Source: Bermanella sp. 47_1433_sub80_T6
GTDB lineage: Bacteria > Pseudomonadota > Gammaproteobacteria > Pseudomonadales > Oceanobacteraceae
Assembly: GCA_002162985.1 (NCBI GenBank)
Contig: MAAD01000207.1
Location: 1-37,544 of the forward strand
Direction: 5' to 3'
Length of the DNA: 37,544 nt
The translations under genes were made by a program, and so were the position numbers. Positions 1-10,859 of the stretch are shown here, piece after piece. The stretch's first letter is position 1, and each line of letters starts with the position of its first letter. The notes below the pieces were generated by a model that searched no databases, was not told where the DNA came from, and was given only the letters and a program-made list of their open reading frames with translations.

Positions 1-648
1 ATAGTCGGCGCTAAAATAGCCCCCATTGATTTTTATGTCCGCCCAAGAATAGCTGCCCCCAAACATCACAGCGTTGAGGTTTTGCTCATCGGTATCGTCA
101 CTTTTCCCCCCTTCCAGTATGGCCCCCACATAACTTTTCACCCCTGACACTTTTTTCATTCTAAACACGATAGCGTGGCCCATACGATAAGGGGTTTGCA
201 AATAGGCTCCAGAGTTGGCCTCAAATACGTTTGCCACATAGGTGCTGTTAACCGGGTTATCTTGCCGGCCTATGGTGATTGAACCTTGTTTGCCTTTAAG
301 GCCCACATTGGCATGACGCACCCTCACATCGGCCAAATCAGTACCAGCATTGGCGCTGGATGAGGTGCTATTGCCCCCTAAACCATCTTTTCGACCAAAA
401 TTATTATCATTGGTGTATTCGGTTTCCAGTTTATAAAAATAGCCCAGACCCGAATTCAGCTTACCTTCGCCTTTAAGGCCTATTCTGTGACCCGCGGTAT
501 TTAATGAAGTATTTTTATCTTCAACATTGGCCAGCACAAAGTGCAGTCGACCATAAACGTTAACACTGGGGGTAGTATCAGCGGCAACGGCTATTACAGA
601 AGAAAATATCAGGTAAAGAAGCAGTGAATAACAAACACCTGGTTTCAT
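1..648 (-). CDS. Gram-negative outer-membrane porin, C-terminus truncated by window edge
   Basis: Open minus frame running off the window edge, ATG at 648. Reads MKPGVCYSLLLYLIFSSVIAVAADTTPSVNVYGRLHFVLANVEDKN...GHRIGLKGEGKLNSGLGYFYKLETEY...GLKGKQGSITIGRQDNP; signal peptide plus the VYGRL / GxKG / GRQ pattern of trimeric porins. Confidence 0.85.
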   Translation of the reverse strand, partial: MKPGVCYSLLLYLIFSSVIAVAADTTPSVNVYGRLHFVLANVEDKNTSLNTAGHRIGLKGEGKLNSGLGYFYKLETEYTNDNNFGRKDGLGGNSTSSSANAGTDLADVRVRHANVGLKGKQGSITIGRQDNPVNSTYVANVFEANSGAYLQTPYRMGHAIVFRMKKVSGVKSYVGAILEGGKSDDTDEQNLNAVMFGGSYSWADIKINGGYFSADY

Positions 649-883: not shown

Positions 884-2131
884 TTAATTTTTGGCATTTA
901 ATTCCTTGAGGCGCCGTTGAATCCGCAGGTGCATCAACACTTCCAATATTTGCTTTTTCTGGCTGCGATCGAGCTTGCTGAAACTCAAGCCGTAACACCA
1001 ATCGTTTGCGGTAATGGTCTCTTTAACCAGTATTTTTCCACTGACACATAATGACAAACCAGGATTGATAAGCTTGATTTTTACCTGAATTGAACTGCCT
1101 TTTTTTAAACTCACTGGCACCACAAACCCCATACCGCCTTTGCAAAAGTCCACTACCAAGCCCACTAACGGCTTGCCGTCATACTCTATTTCCACCGGCA
1201 AATTACAGGAGAGTCTGGGGTGAGTACGCCTGGCTAAAAAAAGCGCCCGAAAGAATAGGGCCCGACTTAAAAGCGCCTCGGCGGTCACCTGTAACGAGGA
1301 TCTAAATTTCACCTCTGCGCGCAATTCTCCCTGTGAAGGGTGACTGTTTATCACCCTTACTTTAAGCCGCAAAGCCTGATCTAAATCCGGATGCAGCAAT
1401 TCCACATAATTCAAATTATTGAGGGAAACTTGCTGCTGCCACTGGCCCTTTTTTATTTTTACATGAAAACCAATCAAGCTGATTTCATTGATACACCCCT
1501 GTATCAATAACACTCCCTCACTGTCCGTTAACAAACAGCGAAGATTGGGAATATAATTATGAATGAGATATTTAAGACGGACATCTGTGATCATGGTTCT
1601 TAAAGATTGGCGAGAGTCCCGTTGCAGCAAAGCCAGATAGATATGAAAGCTCAACACCGGCAGGTAACTAAAGGCAATAAGGCCATGCAGGGTTAATAGA
1701 ATACTGCGCACCTCTGGCACATCTATGCCACGCAACAAATACATGGCCAGCCCGGTCAGTGCCATTAATGTCATGATGATGCTGGAGGCATAGAGGAATA
1801 TGCGCTGCTTCACCACCAATTTGTCGGTGCTAATCACATCCCGCTGATGGGCGGGTTTTACCCTCGCTATTATCGTGAGTATTAACACCCCTACCAGCCA
1901 TGCAATACCCAGCTTAAAATGCATGGGCCGCAGGTCTTGCAGCACATATAACCCCATGCCGCTCAATTCAACTAACTGACTAATGCCCAGAATATAAAGC
2001 CCTATGATTGAGGCGGCGTTGTACCAATGCAGCAGGCGAATGCGTCGTGTAAAGCGGGATACTTTTACCCGGCTGGCATGACTGAGCATCTCAAAACCAA
2101 CATCCTGCTCCAGGCGTTGCATGTTAAACAC
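884..2131 (-). CDS. Cytochrome b561/FdnI-like four-helix membrane domain fused to C-terminal PilZ domain
   Basis: N-term: RRIRLLHWYNAASIIGLYILG, MHFKLGIAWLVGVLILTIIAR, KQRIFLYASSIIMTLMALTGLAMYL, LHGLIAFSYLPVLSFHIYLALL (HW plus paired His as in Ni/Fe-hydrogenase/formate dehydrogenase b-type cytochromes). C-term: ARRTHPRLSCNLPVEIEYDGKPLVGLVVDFCKGGMGF (RxxxR and DxCxxG, near the PilZ DxSxxG). Confidence 0.8.
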   Translation of the reverse strand: MFNMQRLEQDVGFEMLSHASRVKVSRFTRRIRLLHWYNAASIIGLYILGISQLVELSGMGLYVLQDLRPMHFKLGIAWLVGVLILTIIARVKPAHQRDVISTDKLVVKQRIFLYASSIIMTLMALTGLAMYLLRGIDVPEVRSILLTLHGLIAFSYLPVLSFHIYLALLQRDSRQSLRTMITDVRLKYLIHNYIPNLRCLLTDSEGVLLIQGCINEISLIGFHVKIKKGQWQQQVSLNNLNYVELLHPDLDQALRLKVRVINSHPSQGELRAEVKFRSSLQVTAEALLSRALFFRALFLARRTHPRLSCNLPVEIEYDGKPLVGLVVDFCKGGMGFVVPVSLKKGSSIQVKIKLINPGLSLCVSGKILVKETITANDWCYGLSFSKLDRSQKKQILEVLMHLRIQRRLKELNAKN

Positions 2132-2184
2132 TCCACCAGGTTAAGATGCAATTAAGCTTAGCCACCACAGAGCGCTGCTTTTGA

Positions 2185-2748
2185 TTACAATAATTCATGG
2201 CTGTTCATGTCATGATAATTTGAATAATCTTTCCCGCCCTTACTGTGACAAGATACACAGGCTGCATTTTTTGAAAATACTGGGTACGAGTATTCGTCTA
2301 ACAGGTCATGGGCGTAATCTGTGTCGGAGCGGCCATGATTATGGCAATGATTGCAGGATACTATTTTAAAACTCTGTTGATTTGTTAAGTCCTGATGACA
2401 CTCCACACAGGCCAAAGATTGATGATAGGTTTTTTCCTTATAAGGGAAAATACTGGCGTGACGGGTGGCAAACAGGGTTTTGCGCCATCCAAGGAAACTC
2501 GGCTGATGGCAACGATTACAAGTACCCAGGTCACCATGGCTGTCTACCTGATTAGCGTGACAACTGTCGCAGCGCCTTTGTAATCCGAAGTAGTTCAGTT
2601 CAAGATCCCCCAGTACACCACGCCCATGGCCAAACAAACCCACCTGAAAATACATTTCATGAGGTGCAGGGTGAACCCTGGGGTCGCTACAAGCACTGGT
2701 TAACACCATAACAACCGCTAACCAGCCTAATGGGTTTATATTTGCCAT
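2185..2748 (-). CDS. Multiheme c-type cytochrome, probable lipoprotein, five CXXCH motifs
   Basis: CDSCH, CNRCH, CVECH, CNHCH, CVSCH; N-term MANINPLGWLAVVMVLTSACSD resembles a lipobox. 53 bp upstream of the cytochrome b-PilZ gene, same strand. Confidence 0.85.
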   Translation of the reverse strand: MANINPLGWLAVVMVLTSACSDPRVHPAPHEMYFQVGLFGHGRGVLGDLELNYFGLQRRCDSCHANQVDSHGDLGTCNRCHQPSFLGWRKTLFATRHASIFPYKEKTYHQSLACVECHQDLTNQQSFKIVSCNHCHNHGRSDTDYAHDLLDEYSYPVFSKNAACVSCHSKGGKDYSNYHDMNSHELL

Positions 2749-2937
2749 ACAGCTAACTATAGTCTTATAAACCTAAAGGCCCTTAGATGCTCTTTTGCCT
2801 CTATTAATGAAAACTTTATAACTGGTAACTATAACCAGTACCCTTGCGCAATATGAGCTTGCGGAACATGGCAAAACACCTAAGCTAAAATGGATACTAG
2901 GTAGCAACTATTCAGCGCATAAATGAAGGGGATAGCC

Positions 2938-3288
2938 ATGAAACACGTGTTTGCTATTTTGGTACTGGGATTAATTTGTGTCTCTGGAGTATCTGCCCTC
3001 GTAGTGGAAGAAAGTTTAGACACACCACTAAGAAGCAGTGAGAAGATGGCTTTTGAGGACGCGGTTAAGCTCAGTAAAGATATCGCCACCGGCAACAATG
3101 AAGATGCCATGGGCGAGGCCTCCATTGAGTGCCCGGAAGACAATCACCCCTCTTTTGTCGTTATGAACATCAGCATCAATAGCTTTTGGCTGGCAGATGC
3201 TAAATCCCCTAACGACAAACGCTACAGCGGTACCATCAACTATTCCCTTAAGTGCTCCCACGATCGAAGTGGTGGGGGGGATCGCTAG
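2938..3288 (+). CDS. Small secreted protein of unknown function
   Basis: ORF 2923-3288; the internal ATG at 2938 gives signal peptide MKHVFAILVLGLICVSGVSA; two Cys in the mature part. Confidence 0.6.
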   Translation: MKHVFAILVLGLICVSGVSALVVEESLDTPLRSSEKMAFEDAVKLSKDIATGNNEDAMGEASIECPEDNHPSFVVMNISINSFWLADAKSPNDKRYSGTINYSLKCSHDRSGGGDR

Positions 3289-3335: not shown

Positions 3336-3839
3336 ATGAATGTTCATCACAAGCTATTGGTTTCATTACCCCTCATATTATTATTGAGCCTCAGCGGGTT
3401 TACCCTGAGCTCGCAGGTTTACGCCTCTGATAAAGACCGCTCATCCATGATGCGTTACAGAAACCTGTTTATGGAAACCAAGGGCAAACACGCCAAGGCC
3501 ATTAAACTGCTTATTAAAAGCAAATTATCCCTCAAACATATTATTACCCATGGAGAAGCCCTGGCCGCCATGGCCGATGACATGTTGATATTGTTTCCAG
3601 CTGGCACCGCCGGAGGCAAGTCTCGTGTTACCGATAATATTTGGGATAAAAACGGCAAACTCACCGATGATTTTGTGGCCAAGGTCACCGACATGCGCAG
3701 CCAGGCGAGGGAGTTTGTACGGGTGGCTAAAGAAGGTAACTACAAAAAAATTAAGAAACAGATGGGGCGCTTTGCCAATAAAGGGTGTCGTAGTTGCCAT
3801 ACCGATTATCGCGGGGAGGAATTTGAGCCTAAAAAATAA
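3336..3839 (+). CDS. Cytochrome c' family (class II cytochrome c)
   Basis: Start at the internal ATG: MNVHHKLLVSLPLILLLSLSGFTLSSQVYA signal peptide; MMRYR..., FPAGTAGGKSRVTDNIW, C-terminal GCRSCHTDYRGE. Confidence 0.85.
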   Translation: MNVHHKLLVSLPLILLLSLSGFTLSSQVYASDKDRSSMMRYRNLFMETKGKHAKAIKLLIKSKLSLKHIITHGEALAAMADDMLILFPAGTAGGKSRVTDNIWDKNGKLTDDFVAKVTDMRSQAREFVRVAKEGNYKKIKKQMGRFANKGCRSCHTDYRGEEFEPKK

Positions 3840-7337: not shown

Positions 7338-9377
7338 CTAGCTATCCAGGGGGGTAATACTGTCCATTATAACCTGTGCATTGAACGATTGTCGCAAAGC
7401 TTGCACCTTGGGATCCTGCTCTATGCTGTCCACCGCCGCCTGCAGGCGCTCGGCCACCAGCCGCTGATTACGCTGGGCCGGGGTTTCATATTGAATTGGC
7501 CCTTCGATCACCTGTATTTGGTATTGGCTATTGAGGGCGGTATTTAATATTTGATTAAACTTTTGCTGGTGATTGTCGCCAAACAAGCGCATATGGCCCG
7601 CATCGCTGTGAAAAACCAGGTTATTGCCTTCAATGCTCATCAAACAAGTATTAGCTACCAGGTTGCGCAACATACCTTCCAGCGGCAGGGCCGTAAACAT
7701 GATGGGCCAACTGTGGGAAGACAACTCCATGGCCAGTACCGACTCATCCTCCTGTTTAACCTTGGCGGGCTCTGGGTCTACAGACTTTTGCTGCACAGAG
7801 GGAGTCGCTGCAACGGGTGCCGCTGTTTGCTCAATAACAGGAGCCTGTGGCGCGGCTACCGGAGCGGGCTTTTGATCAATAACCGCGGCCTGTGGCACTA
7901 CTACTAGCGGCGCGGTTTTTTGCTCAATTATATGGGCCTGGGGTGCCTCTGCAACAGGTGCCGGCTTTTGCTCAATAATGTGGGCCTGTGGCGCTGGCAT
8001 TATTGGGGCTGGTTTTTGTTCTATGATGTGAGCCTGCGTCATTTCTGGCTTAAGGCTTTCACTGTGAACCGCTTCTGGCTGAATCTGCGACACTTGATTA
8101 TCCGGCTCAATATTCCAGGGCGGCGGATCATTCACCACCACCTCGGACGCGGGGGGTGCCACCGAAGGTGCAGGTGTTTGTGAGCCTTCAATAACCTGGC
8201 GCTTGAGCTGCGCCAGTTCAGGCTTTTTTGCCGGGGTTTCTCCTGTGTCCACCAATGCCGCTGTAGCCGGCGGCACATAGCCCACCTTGGCGCCAATGGG
8301 GGCAAAATTCAGCATACGCAGCAAGGTCATTTCCATGCCTGCCCTTGGGTCGGGGGCCAATGGCAAATCTCGTTTGCCGGTGAGCGCCACCTGATACAGC
8401 AATTGCACCATGTCAGGGCTCATGGCGGTGGCCAGGGTCATGACCTGGTCTTTGTCGCCCTGACTGTTATCCACTGCATCCGGTACCGCTTGCGCGATGG
8501 CGATGCGATGAATCAGCCCCAATAAATCCGCCAGCAGATTATTAAAGTCCACCGCGTGTTCGGCCATTTGCGCAATTAACGCCATGGTTTGCGGCGCATC
8601 GGCCTGCGCCAGGGCGATGGCCAACTGAAATACCCGCCCTCTGTCTACTGTGCCCAGCATGCTGGCCACATCGGTTTCGATAATTTTGCCTTCGCCAAAA
8701 CTAATGGATTGGTCGGTGAGGCTCAAGGCGTCACGCATGCTGCCCTCGGCCGCCTTGCCCAACAACCATAAACCGGGCTCTTCAAAGGGGATGGTTTCTT
8801 TTTCCAATATGGTTTTCAAGTAGCCCACGATGCGCTCGGGAGTCATGTTTTTAAGGCTGAACTGCAAACAACGGGACAACACTGTGGCCGGTAATTTTTG
8901 TGGATCTGTGGTGGCCAACAAGAATTTAACGTGTGGCGGTGGCTCTTCCAGGGTTTTTAACAGGGCGTTAAAACTGGAGTTGGACAGCATGTGCACTTCA
9001 TCGATTAGGTACACCTTAAAACGGCCACGGGTGGGGGCGTATTGCACGTTATCGAGGATTTCGCGGGTGTCTTCCACCTTAGTTCGGGACGCCGCATCCA
9101 CTTCAATAAGATCTACAAAGCGCCCTTCGGTGATTTCCACGCAGCTATTGCAGGTACCGCAGGGCTCAGAGGTGATGCCCTGCTCACAGTTAAGGCACTT
9201 GGCCAAAATTCGCGCGATGGTGGTTTTACCCACCCCGCGGGTACCGGTGAACAAGTACGCATGGTGCAAACGCTGATTATCGAGGGCGTTAATTAGGGCC
9301 CTTAATACGTGCTCTTGCCCCACCATCTCTTTGAAAAACTGGGGGCGCCATTTTCTGGCCAGAACCTGATAACTCAT
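7338..9377 (-). CDS. dnaX: DNA polymerase III subunits tau/gamma
   Basis: MSYQVLARKWRPQFFKEMVGQEHVLRALINALDNQRLHHAYLFTGTRGVGKTTIARILAKCLNC; start at internal ATG 9377. Confidence 0.97.
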   Translation of the reverse strand: MSYQVLARKWRPQFFKEMVGQEHVLRALINALDNQRLHHAYLFTGTRGVGKTTIARILAKCLNCEQGITSEPCGTCNSCVEITEGRFVDLIEVDAASRTKVEDTREILDNVQYAPTRGRFKVYLIDEVHMLSNSSFNALLKTLEEPPPHVKFLLATTDPQKLPATVLSRCLQFSLKNMTPERIVGYLKTILEKETIPFEEPGLWLLGKAAEGSMRDALSLTDQSISFGEGKIIETDVASMLGTVDRGRVFQLAIALAQADAPQTMALIAQMAEHAVDFNNLLADLLGLIHRIAIAQAVPDAVDNSQGDKDQVMTLATAMSPDMVQLLYQVALTGKRDLPLAPDPRAGMEMTLLRMLNFAPIGAKVGYVPPATAALVDTGETPAKKPELAQLKRQVIEGSQTPAPSVAPPASEVVVNDPPPWNIEPDNQVSQIQPEAVHSESLKPEMTQAHIIEQKPAPIMPAPQAHIIEQKPAPVAEAPQAHIIEQKTAPLVVVPQAAVIDQKPAPVAAPQAPVIEQTAAPVAATPSVQQKSVDPEPAKVKQEDESVLAMELSSHSWPIMFTALPLEGMLRNLVANTCLMSIEGNNLVFHSDAGHMRLFGDNHQQKFNQILNTALNSQYQIQVIEGPIQYETPAQRNQRLVAERLQAAVDSIEQDPKVQALRQSFNAQVIMDSITPLDS
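7800..8036 (-). repeat. Five tandem 15-16 aa coding repeats in the DnaX linker
   Basis: QAHIIEQKPAPIMPAP / QAHIIEQKPAPVAEAP / QAHIIEQKTAPLVVVP / QAAVIDQKPAPVAAP / QAPVIEQTAAPVAATP. Confidence 0.9.
8196..8244 (-). promoter_or_regulatory. Programmed -1 ribosomal frameshift cassette in dnaX (SD-like element, A AAA AAG slippery site, stem-loop)
   Basis: Minus: AGGAG (8244-8240), 10-nt spacer, A AAA AAG (8229-8223, in the X XXY YYZ frame), 6-nt spacer, stem CTGGCGC-AGCTCAA-GCGCCAG (8216-8196). The -1 frame reads GCC TGA immediately. Confidence 0.88.
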
Positions 9378-9608
9378 AAAATATCTACTTAGCCGTGGGC
9401 CCAAAATGCCAGATTACGGGGGAAATTTAATGGGGCAGATAATAGCCGACCTGTGCCCAAGAAGCTAGGGAGCACCTGCGCTGAAGCGTGCTTTAAAGCC
9501 CTCAATTTGCCGCTGGCCAAAAGATTGTTGCGACCAGGGTCAACCAAAGCCAATGCCAGCCGTTTTAACCTTATCGCGCCCGGCGCAGCAGTTATATGTG
9601 AGGAATAT

Positions 9609-10859
9609 ATGCCCGATATTGCCTGTCTTTTGCTATCCCGATCCAAAGCTCTGGCACTTTGCACATCCATGGCCCTGAGCGTCAGCGCCTGTATCCAGCT
9701 ACCGGAGGAATTTGAGGACGACACACCACAAACGACCAACGAACAAAATGAGCCCGAAGCCTCGGTTAGTGATGAGAGCCGCACCCTAAACCTGCCGGTC
9801 ACGACCTTCAATTACGCCAACATTCCCTTGCCCCAGCATTATCTACAAAACCAGTACCCGGCCAGCATGCCCTTTCAAAGCGCCGCCATGGATAACGACA
9901 ATACCCCGGATAACAACCCCATTAGCGATGCTGGCGCCACCCTGGGAAGAGTATTATTTTACGACACCCGTTTAAGCGCCAATGGCACGGTATCTTGTGC
10001 CTCTTGCCACCTGCAAGCCTTCGCCTTTTCTGACCCCAACCGCTTGAGCCGGGGATTTGCAGGAGGCCTCACCCGCAGACACAGTATTGGCCTGAGCAAT
10101 GCCCGCTTTTACGCCAATGGTAAATTCTTCTGGGATGAACGGGCCGACACTTTGGAGCAACAGGTATTAATGCCCATTCAGGATGAGGTGGAAATGGGCA
10201 TGGACTTAGCCTCTTTAGTACCCGCGGTGAGCTCACAAGACTTTTACCCTGCCCTGTTTATGGATGCCTTTGGGGATAACACCATCAACAGCGATCGTAT
10301 CGCCCGCGCCCTGGCTCAATTTGTGCGCAGCATCGTGAGTACTCGTTCGCTCTATGATGTGGGCCGCGCCCAGGTAAACAGCCCGCTGGATGATTTCCCC
10401 AACTTCAGTCGCAGTCAAAACCTGGGCAAACGTCTATTCAATAACCCGGGGGCAAACCTACCTCCCTGTGCCGCCTGCCATGCCAGCGAAGCATTTGTGG
10501 GGGTAGTTCCAGCGGCCAACAATGGCCTGGACAGAACTTCGCGTACCGACTTGGGCATTGGTGAAACTACCGGCAGACGTACAGATGAAGGCAAGTTTAA
10601 AACACCAAGCCTGCGCAATATCGCCCTGCGGCCACCCTTCATGCACGATGGGCGCTTTAATACGCTTAGTGAAGTCATTCAGTTTTACAGTCGAGATATT
10701 GAAAACCACCCTAACCTGCACCCGTTATTAAGGGATAATCGCGGGCGGGCTATTCACTATCGCTTTAATAACGACGAGCGCAGAGCCTTAGTGGCTTTCT
10801 TAAACACTTTGACGGATTTTGAATTAATTACAGATGAGAAGTACAGCGACCCGTTTTGA
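9609..10859 (+). CDS. Di-heme cytochrome c peroxidase / MauG family, probable lipoprotein
   Basis: GRVLFYDTRLSANGTVSCASCHLQAFAFSD..., CAACHASEAF, FKTPSLRNIALRPPFMHDGRFNTLSEVIQFY; N-term ...MALSVSAC lipobox-like. Confidence 0.92.
   Translation: MPDIACLLLSRSKALALCTSMALSVSACIQLPEEFEDDTPQTTNEQNEPEASVSDESRTLNLPVTTFNYANIPLPQHYLQNQYPASMPFQSAAMDNDNTPDNNPISDAGATLGRVLFYDTRLSANGTVSCASCHLQAFAFSDPNRLSRGFAGGLTRRHSIGLSNARFYANGKFFWDERADTLEQQVLMPIQDEVEMGMDLASLVPAVSSQDFYPALFMDAFGDNTINSDRIARALAQFVRSIVSTRSLYDVGRAQVNSPLDDFPNFSRSQNLGKRLFNNPGANLPPCAACHASEAFVGVVPAANNGLDRTSRTDLGIGETTGRRTDEGKFKTPSLRNIALRPPFMHDGRFNTLSEVIQFYSRDIENHPNLHPLLRDNRGRAIHYRFNNDERRALVAFLNTLTDFELITDEKYSDPF

Follow-up and report, generated by a model that had tools for sequence, protein, structure and literature searches.

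A cytochrome b561-PilZ-PilZ fusion protein and a pentaheme lipoprotein within a five-gene module of Bermanella, a candidate for c-di-GMP-gated electron transfer

The window, i.e., the whole stretch of 37,544 nucleotides of contig MAAD01000207.1 from Bermanella sp. 47_1433_sub80_T6 that was analysed, encodes a five-gene module consisting of a small secreted protein, a cytochrome c'/c556, a pentaheme lipoprotein, a fusion of a membrane-embedded cytochrome b561 domain with two PilZ domains, and a Porin_4 barrel. All five genes are located in the window, with the porin gene cut by the window edge. The parts are each of a known kind (FdnI-type b561, YcgR-like tandem PilZ, multiheme cytochrome c, cytochrome c', and Porin_4), and the present analysis adds that the fusion-pentaheme pair belongs to a five-gene module. 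We give even chances to the interpretation that this module carries out quinone-linked electron transfer between inner membrane and periplasm and that c-di-GMP gates its membrane cytochrome from the cytoplasmic side. c-di-GMP is known mainly for controlling motility, exopolysaccharide, and gene expression. If the interpretation is true, c-di-GMP would act directly and fast on the electron-transport chain, through a heme-b subunit equipped with its own receptor, and a lifestyle signal could switch the flow of electrons without a detour through gene expression.

Gene Order of the Module

A first-pass annotation of this DNA had reported adjacent open reading frames at 884-2131 and 2185-2748 on the same strand; the coordinates are right, and the strand, which had been left unstated, is the minus strand for both. 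It had also described the two as a paired module. The pentaheme gene does adjoin the fusion gene, at a spacing of 53-62 bp in the window, but the pair is part of the five-gene cassette. We compared six module loci, those of the window and of genomes G007, G011, G025, G012, and G192. The search for the fusion and its five-heme neighbor elsewhere, which had been proposed earlier, shows that the two genes lie next to each other in five other genomes besides the window. The complete five-gene set is found at 5/6 loci, and at the sixth (G007) the c556 gene is not seen because the contig ends. Two forms of gene order exist. In one of them, the porin gene is located downstream of the fusion gene (window, G007, G011, and G025), and in the other it is convergent with the c556 gene (G012 and G192). 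These two forms are at the same time the main split in the trees of all five module genes (support 0.83-0.98).

The genes for the pentaheme lipoprotein and the small secreted protein are divergently oriented at 6/6 loci, being separated by an intergenic region at 2749..2937 in the window. A conserved Fnr/Anr box was not found in this divergent promoter region, where one 9/10 match occurs in G025 and the matches at the other loci are at chance level. At a distance of a few kb from the G012 and G192 loci (L016 14-2845 and L020 3413-7565) there are genes which, named by eye from their sequences, are PAP2, GtrA-like, and GT39-like, and these surroundings are perhaps the shared flanks of a transferred segment.

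The Membrane Domain of the Fusion Protein

The open reading frame 884-2131 exists as first described. Its start, however, is likely the ATG at 2122 rather than the GTG at 2131, which is also possible, because GGTGGAG lies upstream of the ATG and orthologues begin there; the fusion gene would then cover 884..2122 (minus strand) and encode 412 amino acids. The assignment of its helices to a b-type cytochrome was borne out by the profile PF01292 (Ni_hydr_CYTB / prokaryotic cytochrome b561), which matches the window fusion with 50.7 bits against a curated cut-off of 30.1 (2.4e-13) and the three other orthologues scanned with 52.2, 53.9, and 38.6 bits. In these four proteins, the PilZ domain also scores above cut-off.

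The b561 domain (1577..2122, minus strand) contains, as had been noticed, four hydrophobic segments with the HW and His pattern of FdnI. Its ligand-type residues H32, H68, H146, and H160 (412-aa numbering), which correspond to H35, H71, H149, and H163 in the 415-aa numbering, align with H18, H57, H155, and H169 of E. coli FdnI, the heme ligands of that protein. They are situated in TM1, TM2, and TM4 (two), and all four, whose conservation among orthologues had been named as a test in the first-pass annotation, are invariant across six orthologues at identities down to 37%. Furthermore, Q113 of FdnI, presumably a residue of the quinone/HQNO pocket, aligns with the invariant Q109 of the fusion. 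The membrane part is predicted to bind two b hemes and to react with quinone. Stretches rich in Lys/Arg are found before TM1, in the TM2-TM3 loop, and after TM4. Membrane topology is commonly read by the positive-inside rule, and as these segments flank the helices, the N-terminus and the PilZ tail of the fusion are probably both cytoplasmic.

With the FdnI / Ni-hydrogenase b-type subunits (PF01292) the fusion shares four helices, the HW motif, four ligand histidines, and Lys/Arg-rich cytoplasmic ends. In contrast to FdnI, it has no dehydrogenase or hydrogenase as neighbor, and a 220-residue tail with two PilZ domains takes the place of the short FdnI C-terminus. An enzyme donating or accepting electrons is not encoded among the module genes, which counts against the proposed electron-transfer role. 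Neither single-sequence nor profile searches identified a relative of the fusion in the PDB, and AlphaFold models built from two-sequence alignments were too poor for use, with pLDDT values of 41 for the fusion and 48 for the small secreted protein. Comparison of the window copies with those of G007 gives pN 0.13 and pS 0.75 for the fusion and pN 0.22 and pS 0.73 for the pentaheme protein; both are under purifying selection.

The Tandem PilZ Tail

The C-terminal PilZ domain with RRTHPR and DFCKGG is present as originally described, but it is not the only one, since a second, degenerate PilZ precedes the canonical one. The match of PF07238 on the window fusion consists of two stretches. The canonical domain, PilZ2 (899..1231, minus strand), accounts for 69.7 bits against a curated cut-off of 22.5 (3e-19, residues 301-399) and carries RTHPR as RxxxR motif and DFCKGG as [DN]xSxxG motif with Ser replaced by Cys. 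PilZ1 (1253..1576, minus strand) sits between the membrane part and PilZ2, and there NYIPN replaces RxxxR and EISLIG replaces [DN]xSxxG. As an isolated fragment it matches PF07238 with 1.4e-4 (window) or 3.1e-6 (G007); such matches are obtained for 4/6 orthologues, with none in G012 and G192, and PilZ1 was also matched in a search of the own genome. Aligned as profiles, PilZ1 and PilZ2 are in register, though weakly (P = 0.03), and a helix is predicted between them.

In the six orthologues the PilZ2 motif pairs are RRTHPR/DFCKGG (twice), RRNHPR/DLSHGG (G011), RRHHPR/DIGTGG, QRKHPR/NLSLGG, and RRTHPR/NVAFGG, and in the alignment with E. coli YcgR both c-di-GMP motifs of PilZ2 have counterparts (QRRRYFRIS and DLSLGGMG). 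PilZ2 likely binds c-di-GMP, which is not assured because the Ser of the second motif varies among orthologues (C, C, S, G, S, and A); judged by this residue, some of them may bind the ligand weakly or not at all. The PilZ protein of P. aeruginosa, devoid of critical [DN]xSxxG residues, does not bind c-di-GMP (PMC12564702), and PilZ proteins that do not bind it are known more generally (PMC11800159, PMC12564702). Together with this variable Ser and with the degeneracy of PilZ1 in all orthologues, such proteins speak for an electron-transfer module whose PilZ pair no longer binds c-di-GMP and is kept for assembly or localization only. We consider this rather unlikely: R302, R306, the D/N residue, and GG332-333 are retained in all six orthologues, including the one with 37% identity, the gap between the two motifs is constantly 23 residues, and PilZ2 evolves no faster than the b561 domain (pN 0.128 vs 0.123). 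A supply of the ligand is suggested by three genes in the window, two coding for GGDEF proteins and one for a GGDEF-EAL protein, from which it is likely that the host makes c-di-GMP.

Two PilZ-like domains in one protein constitute the second commonest PilZ layout, and a divergent first domain followed by a motif-bearing second one is the architecture of YcgR (PMC11800159). The fusion tail has this same order, with a divergent first PilZ-like domain and then a PilZ with RxxxR and [DN]xxxGG, as in YcgR-like PilZN-PilZ effectors (PMC11800159). Unlike in YcgR, the tail is joined to a membrane domain with heme ligands and the Ser of the second motif is not conserved. The YcgR_N Pfam domain has no match in the fusion, the first domain of which matches the ordinary PF07238 weakly. 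By analogy, the tail might work like YcgR, yet the fusion would not be a member of the YcgR family.

Two cysteines of the fusion, C309 and C199 (415-aa numbering; window 1205-1207 and 1535-1537, minus strand), are invariant. They occupy matching places in the two PilZ domains, each within PxLxC after the RxxxR slot, and could be structural or form a thiol switch.

The YcgR-like layout of the tail also suits a sensor working in the opposite sense, in which the b hemes would sense how reduced the quinone pool or the periplasm is and pass this on to the tail, which would act on a partner, e.g., the flagellar motor. Electron transfer would then be the input and not the output of a membrane-anchored, redox-gated brake of the YcgR type. 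We regard this as unlikely. The PilZ and PilZN domains of YcgR work by binding to MotA and FliG (PMC11800159), and Tlp1 and Aer of Azospirillum couple oxygen sensing with PilZ, although these proteins are chemoreceptors (PMC13401364); C199 and C309 could relay the redox state. However, the strict linkage to a pentaheme protein, a c556-type cytochrome, and a porin looks more like a path of several carriers, beyond what a sensor needs, and the module does not contain a flagellar gene.

The Pentaheme Lipoprotein and the Other Module Proteins

The pentaheme c-type cytochrome (2185..2748, minus strand; 187 aa) has exactly the five CXXCH motifs that had been counted, at residues 60, 77, 114, 132, and 164, whereas 20,000 shuffles of the protein yielded two at most. 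All five motifs are invariant among orthologues and there are 12 invariant histidines, seven of them beyond the five CXXCH histidines. The lipobox-like N-terminus seen earlier, LTSAC in the window, is canonical in orthologues (LTAC, LIAC, LSGC, and LAGC), and the protein is a predicted lipoprotein. Its similarity to Cytochrom_CIII (class III / c7) is weak, with 24.6 bits against a cut-off of 22.9 in the window and a score below cut-off in G011.

The monoheme protein encoded at 3336..3839 (plus strand) belongs to the fold family of cytochrome c'/c556 (PF01322 1.2e-16, 62.2 bits against a cut-off of 26.5), with which it shares a C-terminal CXXCH, here CRSCH, and it matches cytochrome c' chains in the PDB. 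In contrast to c' of the NO-binding type, it possesses a Met at the distal heme position (YRxxxM). In the register of the PDB profile (profile position 35 = residue 9), this residue, the invariant M42, corresponds to Leu16, the distal residue in cytochrome c' of Alcaligenes (A. xylosoxidans sequence). Because Met occupies the distal position, the protein is probably of the six-coordinate c556 type, which suggests that it carries electrons rather than binding gases.

The small secreted protein (2938..3288, plus strand) is transcribed divergently from the pentaheme gene and its fold has no known match. It contains invariant C65 and C106 as well as an ECPxDN motif (116-aa numbering). The porin gene (1..648, minus strand; cut by the window edge) matches Porin_4 with 1.7e-14 and codes for a barrel of about 350 aa in orthologues. 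A porin-cytochrome conduit of the MtrCAB type was considered and rejected, as the barrel is an ordinary Porin_4 of that size instead of a large MtrB-like one, and the cytochrome has five hemes and is not an embedded decaheme protein.

Porin and small secreted protein are encoded at 6/6 module loci, and a profile of the latter detects 3/324 genomes of the order, all three with the fusion. Such co-occurrence would fit a dedicated respiratory or detoxifying system, with the porin importing a substrate, the small protein and c556 handling it, the b561 domain feeding electrons, and c-di-GMP in a secondary role. This is very improbable in our view: none of the five module proteins has a recognised catalytic domain, and neither Pfam nor PHROG yielded a relative of the small protein, whose matches in the PDB were weak and chance-like. 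The small secreted protein appears to represent a new family linked with the module.

Distribution and Inheritance

The fusion is present in 5/45 genomes of the family, and the pentaheme protein occurs in exactly the same five. The whole module is also found in G192, which belongs to another family in the same order and whose fusion is 45% identical to that of the window, whereas the fusion of G012, from the window's own genus, shows a lower identity of 37%. An orthologue from a Bermanella sp. MAG is 81% identical to the window copy. In samples of class (369) and phylum (399) genomes, about 770 in total, there was no relative of the fusion except in the window's own genome, and a search for independent b561-PilZ fusions in the class at lax threshold returned PilZ-only proteins alone. 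No plasmid match was found. Because of its patchy all-or-none occurrence and the same main split in the gene trees, the pattern points to a cassette that may be transferred or lost as a unit.

A Possible Mechanism

In the proposed electron-transfer module, the b561 domain with its two b hemes would exchange electrons, in one direction or the other, between the quinone pool and the pentaheme lipoprotein, through which the c556-type cytochrome would be reached as mobile periplasmic carrier; the porin might let in a small electron donor or acceptor. In FdnI, quinone reacts close to the cytoplasmic heme. The cytoplasmic PilZ1-PilZ2 pair would lie near the N-side heme and, given FdnI geometry, near the quinone site, and the tail, which starts about 20-30 residues past the TM4 histidine, appears to be well placed for gating that site. 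By analogy with YcgR or BcsA, binding of c-di-GMP at the hinge between PilZ1 and PilZ2 might then displace the tail, so that the quinone site would be opened or closed and the signal for the attached or biofilm state would set electron flow without new transcription. A point against gating is that a PilZ tail can act via protein contacts alone. That the system is, in detail, a quinone:cytochrome c oxidoreductase, respiratory or electron-exporting, that is switched allosterically by c-di-GMP via the PilZ tail on its heme-b subunit is a tentative proposal, to which we attach somewhat less than even chances.

As nearest functional analogues we regard CbcL and CbcBA of Geobacter, inner-membrane cytochromes that combine b and c types and are located at the quinone pool (PMC6148476). 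In both cases a b-type membrane cytochrome meets c-type heme where electrons leave the quinone pool. Compared by description, the module differs in three respects: its b and c parts are separate proteins, the five-heme c part is predicted to be lipid-anchored, and the b part has a PilZ tail in addition. Cellulose synthase BcsA is a membrane enzyme with a C-terminal PilZ as c-di-GMP gate (PMC12564702) and resembles the fusion in being a membrane catalyst with a PilZ at its C-terminus. The fusion, however, lacks a glycosyltransferase and its membrane part is a heme protein; a CelA profile matches it weakly (3.3e-7, far below cut-off) over the last helices and PilZ1. A published fusion of PilZ with a b-type cytochrome was not found in the open-licence literature, which is not proof of absence. 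With the fusion, the coupling of signal and electron flow could be measured within one protein, as the rate from quinol to heme with and without c-di-GMP, and the five-gene cassette provides a new set of partners, including a small secreted family without known relative.

Other Features of the Contig

Two further observations concern genes outside the module. At window positions 9453-10859 (plus strand) a di-heme protein of the cytochrome c peroxidase/MauG type (3.7e-50) is encoded, a further heme protein on the contig. Inside dnaX, a 45-bp tandem repeat at window positions 7826-7928 is translated into recurrent PQAHIIEQKPAPV-like linkers of the tau/gamma subunit.
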